Origin: Candidatus Saccharimonadota bacterium
GTDB lineage: Bacteria > Patescibacteriota > Saccharimonadia > Saccharimonadales > UBA10212
DNA: 33,766 bases
NCBI GenBank assembly: GCA_025934715.1
Contig: JAICWR010000006.1
Coordinates: 1-33,766, forward strand
Reading direction: 5' to 3'
Positions 9,626 to 15,526 of this stretch are shown here, piece by piece. The position numbers and the translations under genes are program-made. The notes below the pieces were generated by a model. That model worked only from the letters and a program-made list of their open reading frames with translations. It did not search any database and was not told the origin of the DNA. Numbering within the stretch: the first letter of the stretch is position 1; each line of letters starts with the position of its first letter.

Positions 9626-9883
9626 CTAAACTTTTTTAAGTGTATTAGATAACATTTTATTAATGTGGTTTCTGCCCCATCCTGTTTTAAGCCACTTCTC
9701 TCTCAGATACGCATCATACTTATTGGTGAAGGCTTCATAAAATATTAAGTCATATGGACCAGAATCACTAGTCCATTTCACTCTGCGAGAATTATGTTCC
9801 TTAAGCCGTTTTTGCAAATTATTGGTGCATCCAGTATAAAACTTGCCGTCAAGTCTGCTTTTCAATATATAGACATAATACAT
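9626..9883 (-). CDS. GIY-YIG domain nuclease-like protein
   Basis: Single GIY-YIG domain protein of the YhbQ/UvrC-N type. The N-terminus has YYVYILKS (GIY-equivalent) and FYTGCTN (YIG-equivalent), followed by the conserved Arg in LQKRLKEHN and a Glu in AYLREKWLKTGWGR. The start MYYVY is preferred over the ORF-track start 17 codons upstream because the family begins at this point. At 85 aa it has the normal length for stand-alone members. The stop lies just upstream of ndk. It is AT-rich compared with ndk and sits 57 nt from the heptamer array that borders the S23 gene. It may be an accessory or mobile gene, but many such proteins are stable residents of CPR genomes. Confidence 0.85.
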   Translation of the reverse strand: MYYVYILKSRLDGKFYTGCTNNLQKRLKEHNSRRVKWTSDSGPYDLIFYEAFTNKYDAYLREKWLKTGWGRNHINKMLSNTLKKV

Positions 9884-9940
9884 AAAAAAGTTTGGCGGAC
9901 TAAGTATAACAGATGAGAATCTGAGCAACAACACTGCTCA

Positions 9941-9973
9941 AGTAGGCATTAGGGAGTAGGCAACAGGCATTAG
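9941..9973. repeat. Heptamer array A-left (next to S23 gene A)
   Basis: Tandem degenerate 7-mers, on the minus strand AATGCCT, GTTGCCT, ACTCCCT, AATGCCT. The stop codon of the S23 gene lies inside the array edge. It is the inverted counterpart of the array at 10324-10352. Confidence 0.75.
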
Positions 9974-10272
9974 TTTTTGAGCTTACTTATTAACGCGTAG
10001 AGCATTTTCTGAACCTCGCTGAGCAATTCCTCCGCTCTACGTGTTTCTATATGCGGGTACTCTTGCTTAATAATTACCACTTGCGTATCAAGTTCGGCTG
10101 CCGAGCCAAAGGCCATGGATAAGAATCGTATGTAGTCGCCTGTACTTCTTCTGGCGTAGCCCTCTGAAATATTTGAAGGGATGGAAACAGCAGATCTTTG
10201 AGCCTGACTTACAAGCCCGAACTGTTCACTTTTAGGAAGCTTTTTGGACAAGGCATAGGTTTCGCTAACCAA
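9970..10272 (-). CDS. Four-helix-bundle (S23 / 23S rRNA intervening-sequence) protein, start unclear
   Basis: 100 aa as tracked, belonging to the S23 four-helix-bundle family first seen in 23S rRNA intervening sequences. Its biochemical role is unknown. The core signature is present: QAQRSAVSIPSNISEGYARRS and a helical region around AAELDTQV. The reading frame continues 16 codons upstream of the tracked TTG start and encodes YKDLEVWKRSIALVSE, the normal N-terminus of the family. However, there is no ATG, GTG or TTG between an in-frame stop (10330-10332) and that segment. Either an ATA within the heptamer array serves as start, the start has been lost, or the short form is made. It is flanked by inverted heptamer arrays. 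Confidence 0.75.
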   Translation of the reverse strand: MVSETYALSKKLPKSEQFGLVSQAQRSAVSIPSNISEGYARRSTGDYIRFLSMAFGSAAELDTQVVIIKQEYPHIETRRAEELLSEVQKMLYALISKLKN

Positions 10273-10323
10273 AGCAATGCTACGTTTCCATACTTCTAAA
10301 TCCTTATACGAACGCGGCTTAAC

Positions 10324-10352
10324 TATTGCCTATATCCTATTGCCTATTCCCT
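10324..10352. repeat. Heptamer array A-right
   Basis: On the plus strand four tandem 7-mers run as (T)ATTGCCT, ATATCCT, ATTGCCT, ATTCCCT. It is inverted relative to 9941-9973 and covers the expected start region of the S23 gene. A 13-nt stretch TTGCCTATTCCCT recurs exactly inside pilD. Confidence 0.75.
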
Positions 10353-10372
10353 AAAAAGAAAATTGCTAGAGC

Positions 10373-15083: not shown

Positions 15084-15145
15084 TTTACCGTTGACAGTTT
15101 ACCGTTTACAATGCGTTTACTATGAACCGTGAACCGTTTACTATG
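15084..15145. repeat. Heptamer array B-left
   Basis: Tandem 7-mers on the plus strand: TTTACCG, TTGACAG, TTTACCG, TTTACAA, then TGCG, then TTTACTA, TGAACCG, TGAACCG, TTTACTA. The 4-nt TGCG interruption after four units recurs in the inverted right array. The start region of the S23 gene lies inside it. Confidence 0.8.
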
Positions 15146-15499
15146 GGCAACCGGACCATTAGCTTTAGCGCCAATATTATTAACTTCTGTAAAAATGAAA
15201 AAATGACTCCAATAACTAAGCCTTTGATTGAACACTTAGTAAGGTCGGCTACATCTATCGGGGCCAACTATGCAGAAGCCAACAATGCGGCTTCAAAAGC
15301 TGATTTTCGAAGTAAAATTTATATTGCAAAGAAAGAAGCCGCTGAAACCAAGTACTGGCTAGCCCTGATGCTTAATTTAGCGGCGGATAGGAAGACATGC
15401 ACAGAGCTTCTGAATGAGAGCCATTATCTGTTAATGACCTTCCAAAAGATTATTAGTACCTTGAAGAATGGTAAACAGAAAGCAGTTAACGCAAGGTAA
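15143..15499 (+). CDS. Four-helix-bundle (S23 family) protein
   Basis: 118 aa from the chosen start MGNRTISF; the tracked start is 7 codons upstream in the heptamer array. Family features are clear: FSANIINFCKN, LVRSATSIGANYAEANNAASKADF and KKEAAETKYWLALM, which give four amphipathic helices. The function of S23 proteins is unknown. The last codons (about NGKQKAVNAR) and the stop are read from the right heptamer array, so the coding region is embedded between, and partly made of, the repeats. It is on the strand opposite to the pilus genes on both sides, which fits insertion as a unit. It is only distantly similar to the S23 protein at 9970 and carries a different heptamer. Confidence 0.85.
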   Translation: MGNRTISFSANIINFCKNEKMTPITKPLIEHLVRSATSIGANYAEANNAASKADFRSKIYIAKKEAAETKYWLALMLNLAADRKTCTELLNESHYLLMTFQKIISTLKNGKQKAVNAR

Positions 15500-15523
15500 A
15501 CAGTGAATGGTAAACTGTAAACG
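15470..15523. repeat. Heptamer array B-right
   Basis: On the minus strand: TTTACAG, TTTACCA, TTCACTG, TTTACCT, then TGCG, then TTAACTG, CTTTCTG, TTTACCA. It is the inverted counterpart of 15084-15145, with the same TGCG break after four units. It ends 4 nt before the pilD stop codon. Confidence 0.8.
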
Positions 15524-15526
15524 TTT

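Follow-up and report, generated by a model that had tools for sequence, protein, structure and literature searches.

Results

Two S23 genes lie between inverted heptamer arrays

The window, that is, the whole stretch of 33,766 nucleotides of contig JAICWR010000006.1 from a Candidatus Saccharimonadota bacterium that was analysed, carries two genes of the S23 or "four helix bundle protein" family, which occurs in many phyla and is mis-named as a ribosomal protein. Each gene is found between two arrays of tandem 7-mers, and we refer to these units as elements A and B. The features are as follows.

9941..10355, minus strand: element A, an insertion between ndk/GIY-YIG and xerD that comprises an S23 gene and its two inverted heptamer arrays
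9943..9973, no strand assigned: downstream array of element A, TAGGCAT TAGGGAG TAGGCAA CAGGCAT TAG as read on the plus strand, with the S23 stop codon inside
9970..10305, minus strand: S23 (four-helix-bundle) gene A, full-length frame without a canonical start
10323..10353, no strand assigned: upstream array of element A, TAGGGAA TAGGCAA TAGGATA TAGGCAA TAG in gene direction
15084..15137, no strand assigned: upstream array of element B, units TTTACCG/TTTACAA/TGAACCG, with candidate start codons inside
15122..15499, plus strand: S23 gene B, of a second S23 lineage, starting at ATG 15122 or 15143, antisense within the pil operon
15495..15524, no strand assigned: downstream array of element B, the inverse of GTTTACAGTTTACCATTCACTGTTTACC, ending right at the pilD stop codon
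16263..16302, no strand assigned: S23-less array with the unit of element A, within the coding sequence of pilD, at a linker that bears arrays or is absent in relatives

In element A, which measures about 415 bp, the downstream array is the inverse of the upstream array, and the unit is (T)AGGCAA (the right array reads CTATTGCCTATATCCTATTGCCTATTCCC on the plus strand, 10323-10353). A sequence-only reading of this DNA had placed the gene between facing 7-mer arrays, and this was borne out: the inverted match between the arrays scored 14.0 compared to 6.0 for the direct control, and 0 of 1,000 dinucleotide shuffles of the flanks reached 14.0. Periodicity at lag 7 was significant against dinucleotide shuffles on both sides (p = 0.001 upstream and 0.005 downstream). 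The product of gene A matches PF05635 (E = 5e-26) and TIGR02436 (E = 2e-28). The stop codon lies in the downstream array, as that reading had stated. The frame is open to about 10329 but contains no ATG, GTG, or TTG ahead of helix 1. The first canonical start is a TTG at 10272, and its use would remove part of helix 1. As there is no canonical start for the full-length product, copy A must either be in decay or rely on a non-canonical start. A small GIY-YIG nuclease open reading frame (9626-9934 of the window) adjoins element A, and the corresponding interval in genomes G001, G002, and G010 has no room for it.

The second S23 gene (15143), expected to have a similar organization with a different 7-mer, indeed does: the inverted arrays of element B, of the TTTACCG/TGAACCG type, scored 15.5, a value reached by 0 of 1,000 shuffles, and the element spans about 440 bp. 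A third S23 gene of the same genome (contig C6, L002) has a third unit, CATTNNN, and its arrays are also inverted. All three S23 genes of the genome are thus located between inverted arrays of about four to five tandem 7-mers, and the 7-mer differs from gene to gene. Elements A and B both have terminal inverted repeats, and both are situated between protein genes and not inside an rRNA gene. S23 is the only gene between their arrays, and no recognizable transposase was found there. The unit of element A occurs elsewhere in the genome in S23-less inverted pairs with short loops, on contigs C22, C24, and C17. The linker after the first helix of pilD (L202-L215) carries in-frame heptamer arrays that differ from genome to genome, and none are present in G009, G012, and G013.

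Arrays are a common property of S23 loci

We analyzed 167 S23 loci, 25 from the family of the window, 62 from its class, and 80 from many phyla; the last are the best matches to a hand-written consensus protein and not a random sample. Matching at lags 7 and 14, and also at lag 8, mainly in Bacteroidota, was far above that at other lags and at control positions of the same loci (120 bp on each side). A strict test, which requires both arrays at one period, was passed by 79/167 loci (59 at period 7, 20 at period 8, and none at 5, 6, 9, or 10) compared to 7/638 control pairs, and a looser test found a shared inverted unit in 98/167. For the 80 phylum-wide loci, the upstream flank matched the reverse-complemented downstream flank with a mean score of 17.4, compared to 8.2 for the direct comparison and 7.5 for swapped partners. 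Chance or low complexity as the source of the arrays is ruled out by the lag, strict-detection, and shuffle tests. These data agree with the prediction that S23 homologues are commonly flanked by arrays. The observation proved general, with the correction that some lineages use 8-mers.

The elements have a median length of 445 bp (10 to 90% range, 418 to 491), with median array copy numbers of 4.3 to 4.6 upstream and 3.3 to 4.3 downstream, and "AG" is the step most often fixed within the unit. Cyanobacterial S23 elements end in arrays with units such as GGGAGTA, GGGAACA, and GTCAGGA. One viral contig shows the matching combination of S23 and arrays. S23 elements are also found between cas genes on cyanobacterial plasmids (cas6/cas4 and cas10/cmr3; L273, L275, and L278). 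Many S23 loci are kept at orthologous sites, such as an octamer-flanked locus across Flavobacterium (L126, L138, L185, L194, and others), which indicates that movement is rare and that some copies have long been inherited.

The array unit covaries with the S23 lineage

Outside the AG step, units grow more alike as S23 identity rises, and S23 pairs that are more than 70% identical always share the period. As related loci could share both gene and arrays simply by common ancestry, the relevant comparison is that of same-period pairs with non-homologous flanks. Here the unit similarity was 0.49 at S23 identities of at least 60% and 0.29 at identities below 50% (p = 7e-30). This p value is only nominal, because locus pairs are not independent. 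The trend persists at non-homologous flanks, and this rules out shared locus ancestry as the sole cause; the proposed covariation of heptamer and S23 relatedness therefore holds at such sites too. Different phyla can hold related S23 genes with similar units; one example is AGTCGTT or AGTCGAT, shared by Atribacterota, Omnitrophota, and Planctomycetota.

Empty sites and target duplication

Empty sites were found both in the family of the window and on cyanobacterial plasmids. Genomes G001, G002, G010, and G005 have no arrays in the xerD-ndk interval, which contains element A in the window, and the xerD site of G011 has an S23-less heptamer hairpin with units other than those of element A. The site directly behind pilD, occupied by element B in the window, is empty in G001 and carries S23-less heptamer hairpins in G014, G011, and G007. 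Target duplication could not be read for elements A and B, as the flanks of filled and empty sites have diverged too far.

On the cyanobacterial plasmids, filled and empty sites are closely related (about 97% identity). The insert at the TrbI site is 428 bp in Trichormus and 414 bp in Scytonema, with a 5-bp duplication, GTAAT. At a Nostoc site TTCTA is repeated with one base lost, so that a target duplication is probable, and at a further site ATG is repeated. The insertions are located between adjacent genes, and one of them sits where a stop and a start codon overlap as TAATG. A decayed copy occupies the TrbI site of Nostoc C052, and the TraM site of Nostoc ATCC 53789 carries an S23-less derivative.

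S23-less arrays and the question of a separate transposase

Arrays were counted in 295 genomes of the class with the single pattern (TAGN4)3TAG, which detects only TAG-type units and misses others. At least three such arrays were present in 21/38 S23-high genomes and 12/257 other genomes (odds ratio, 25; p = 7e-14); these genome-level tests were not corrected for phylogeny. Most arrays in these genomes have no S23 gene and form hairpins resembling miniature inverted-repeat transposable elements (MITEs), concentrated in the S23-bearing genomes. The sequence-only reading had named arrays equally common away from S23 genes and without covariation as a reason to reject the linkage. More arrays indeed lie away from S23 genes than beside them, but their unit tends to match that of the resident S23: S23-less arrays resemble the ends of the S23 element in their own genome more than those of other genomes (15.7 versus 7.9; 13 genomes, p = 0.0017). 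As S23-less inverted pairs abound and their unit tends to match the resident S23, the class takes in non-autonomous derivatives. In several genomes that are rich in arrays but have no intact S23 gene, a remnant or pseudogene of it is present, yet for G222, with 69 TAG-type array matches, no S23, Y1, or reverse transcriptase gene was detected. S23-less inverted heptamer hairpins also occur in the V1 region of the 16S rRNA of the Saccharibacteria G044, G025, and G053 (L233, L234, and L236, about 1490-1600), and the pattern count turned up the same array sequences in G041 and G055.

It is conceivable that a separate enzyme, chiefly a RAYT-like Y1 transposase, moves both hairpins and S23 elements in trans, with S23 as a mere passenger. 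Arrays do go together with Y1 (PF01797) (odds ratio, 9.7), and the association extends to genomes that lack S23 (7/40 versus 5/217; p = 6e-4). We nevertheless consider this explanation quite unlikely. No Y1 gene was found in the genome of the window or in G120, G064, G260, G022, G027, and G227, all of which have S23 and arrays, and within Y1-negative genomes S23 still predicts arrays (p = 2e-6). Moreover, the Y1 genes that we inspected are flanked by short palindromes of their own (e.g., GCAAGGAGCCTCCTTGC) and not by heptamer arrays. With such different ends, Y1/RAYT was rejected as the enzyme of the element itself, and the statistical association remains. The RAYT-like Y1 genes of Saccharibacteria (L296-L315) encode about 205 amino acids, and many have such palindromes beside them.

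The S23 fold and the Avd-like relatives

The product of gene A is predicted to form four helices (pLDDT, 97.6). The closest folds are those of S23 proteins (2GSC and 2RLD, five chains each), followed by Avd, the accessory protein of diversity-generating retroelements (DGRs), both by itself and as part of the DGR ribonucleoprotein (4DWL and 8UBE). We know of no catalytic activity of S23, and to our knowledge no function has been assigned to it since it was first found in rRNA intervening sequences.

The likeness to Avd raises the possibility that S23 acts as Avd does and that the element retrotransposes with a reverse transcriptase of the host. Besides the fold, the hairpins in rRNA and the predominance of sense orientation discussed below would fit such a route. 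However, reverse transcriptase (PF00078) is present in 8/38 S23-high genomes versus 84/257 others and tends away from arrays, and none was found in the genome of the window. By their coordinates, about 16 low-scoring PF05635 matches have a reverse transcriptase no more than about 1.5 kb away (G005, G066, G084, G088, and others), and it is this low-scoring, array-less kind that is its neighbor; the low-scoring PF05635 proteins of Saccharibacteria show no clear arrays (L106-L121). These proteins look Avd-like within the same Pfam family. A reverse transcriptase or DGR partner was rejected as a requirement, and we regard the retrotransposition route as highly improbable.

Discussion

Elements A and B probably belong to a class of small mobile elements that is widespread, with a length of about 415 to 500 bp, a single open reading frame (S23), and inverted ends of about four to five tandem 7-mers (8-mers in some lineages), and this judgment takes in the mechanism outlined below. 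The observations are shared inverted ends, a linkage between unit and S23, empty sites, and a 5-bp duplication at one clean site and probably at a second. To these are added S23-less derivatives, decayed copies, and insertion between genes and, without S23, in 16S rRNA. The earlier proposal of an element type made of S23 and its own heptamer ends, with no recognizable transposase, is supported by the generality of the arrays, the covariation, and the empty sites.

S23 probably binds the arrays. This is inferred from its fold, which is like that of pentameric Avd, and there are no binding data. An S23 pentamer may recognize the array, perhaps with one subunit per repeat over about five repeats, although the array copy number near five is only a loose fit to a pentamer. 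It could then pair both ends of the element, after which a host enzyme would make a staggered cut and join the ends; S23-less hairpins that retain the arrays may have been moved in trans. Which enzyme cuts and joins remains open, because S23 has no known catalysis and no recombinase travels along. In a transcript, the paired arrays would form a stem that could be cleaved by RNase III, as in rRNA intervening sequences, and such cleavage would render insertion in operons and rRNA harmless.

Among the S23 copies located within gene runs, 73/92 have the sense orientation, with A and B as exceptions. Pure DNA transposition does not require this bias, and it counts against the mobile-element view. 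It suggests a role for transcription across the element, be it in S23 expression or in an RNA cut that spares the host. Alternatively, the arrays could be RNase III processing or regulatory stems of the S23 mRNA, with S23 binding its own stem and the locus spreading by horizontal transfer and recombination. The sense bias fits this explanation, as do the long persistence at orthologous sites and the excision by RNase III of the Coxiella intervening sequence (PMC4990558). The arms are complementary by construction, and the folding of element B RNA is more favorable than that of shuffles (z = -2.96); for element A it is little more so (z = -1.47), and element B lies antisense in its operon. The variant units follow a mirrored order in the two arms only weakly. 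As proof of an RNA stem, mirror-ordered arms were rejected: the effect is too small (16.66 versus 16.29; p = 0.003), and whole-element folds are modestly above shuffles. Precise insertions of 414 to 428 bp with target duplication, together with the many sites that hold S23-less copies, demand DNA insertion. A purely RNA-based origin of the arrays is therefore unlikely to us, but a role as an mRNA stem and mobility can hold together.

Through its linkage to the arrays, S23 gains a testable function, the recognition of a lineage-specific array, and three puzzles are joined: rRNA intervening sequences, the heptamer repeats of cyanobacteria and other bacteria, and S23 itself. The linkage is also a pointer to mobile elements without a recognized recombinase. 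Mobility can be tested directly, since closely related filled and empty plasmid sites have been identified. On a more far-reaching proposal we are evenly divided, namely, that these elements are a separate class of transposable elements in which pentameric S23, by itself or with host enzymes, moves the DNA between its own heptamer arrays, with heptamer codes for each lineage; copies or remnants of this class would then include the rRNA intervening sequences and many of the heptamer repeats.

Several known systems resemble these elements in part. Insertion sequences and MITEs share terminal inverted repeats, target duplication, and non-autonomous copies; the S23 elements differ from insertion sequences in having no transposase open reading frame. 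REP/REPIN sequences with their RAYT (Y1) are likewise short hairpins dispersed between genes by a single-gene partner, but the S23 elements end in tandem heptamers, their partner is S23, and the genome of the window has no Y1. Avd of the DGRs has its fold in common with S23, and the genome of the window is without a reverse transcriptase. The cyanobacterial short tandemly repeated repetitive (STRR) sequences are tandem degenerate heptamers between genes, a likeness of organization that does not rest on a comparison with the STRR consensus. The TAACTGA repeats of Beggiatoaceae are also tandem 7-mers between genes and were seen as possibly regulatory; the terms S23 and helix bundle are absent from that paper (PMC4679880). 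We found no literature in which S23 and heptamer arrays are generally linked, but most subscription journals were outside our search, and an earlier partial notice, for example with the cyanobacterial repeats, is not excluded.

The closest relatives are the S23-encoding 23S rRNA intervening sequences of Leptospira and Coxiella, which share the S23 open reading frame, the complementary termini, and a size of about 430 nt, and in Coxiella also tandem heptamers. The Coxiella sequence has 428 nt, with an S23 open reading frame, a 28-bp terminal inverted repeat, and two or three tandem GACAGAT heptamers ahead of the open reading frame, and is excised by RNase III; its authors recorded a mobile-element hypothesis and gave the heptamers merely as a strain difference (PMC4990558). 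In the papers on intervening sequences that we found, there is no mention of ends regularly built of arrays, units specific to a lineage, copies without S23, empty sites, or target duplication. Whereas the known S23-encoding intervening sequences are in rRNA, the elements described here are between protein genes, and we conclude that this widespread class of small mobile elements includes the rRNA intervening sequences as a subset.
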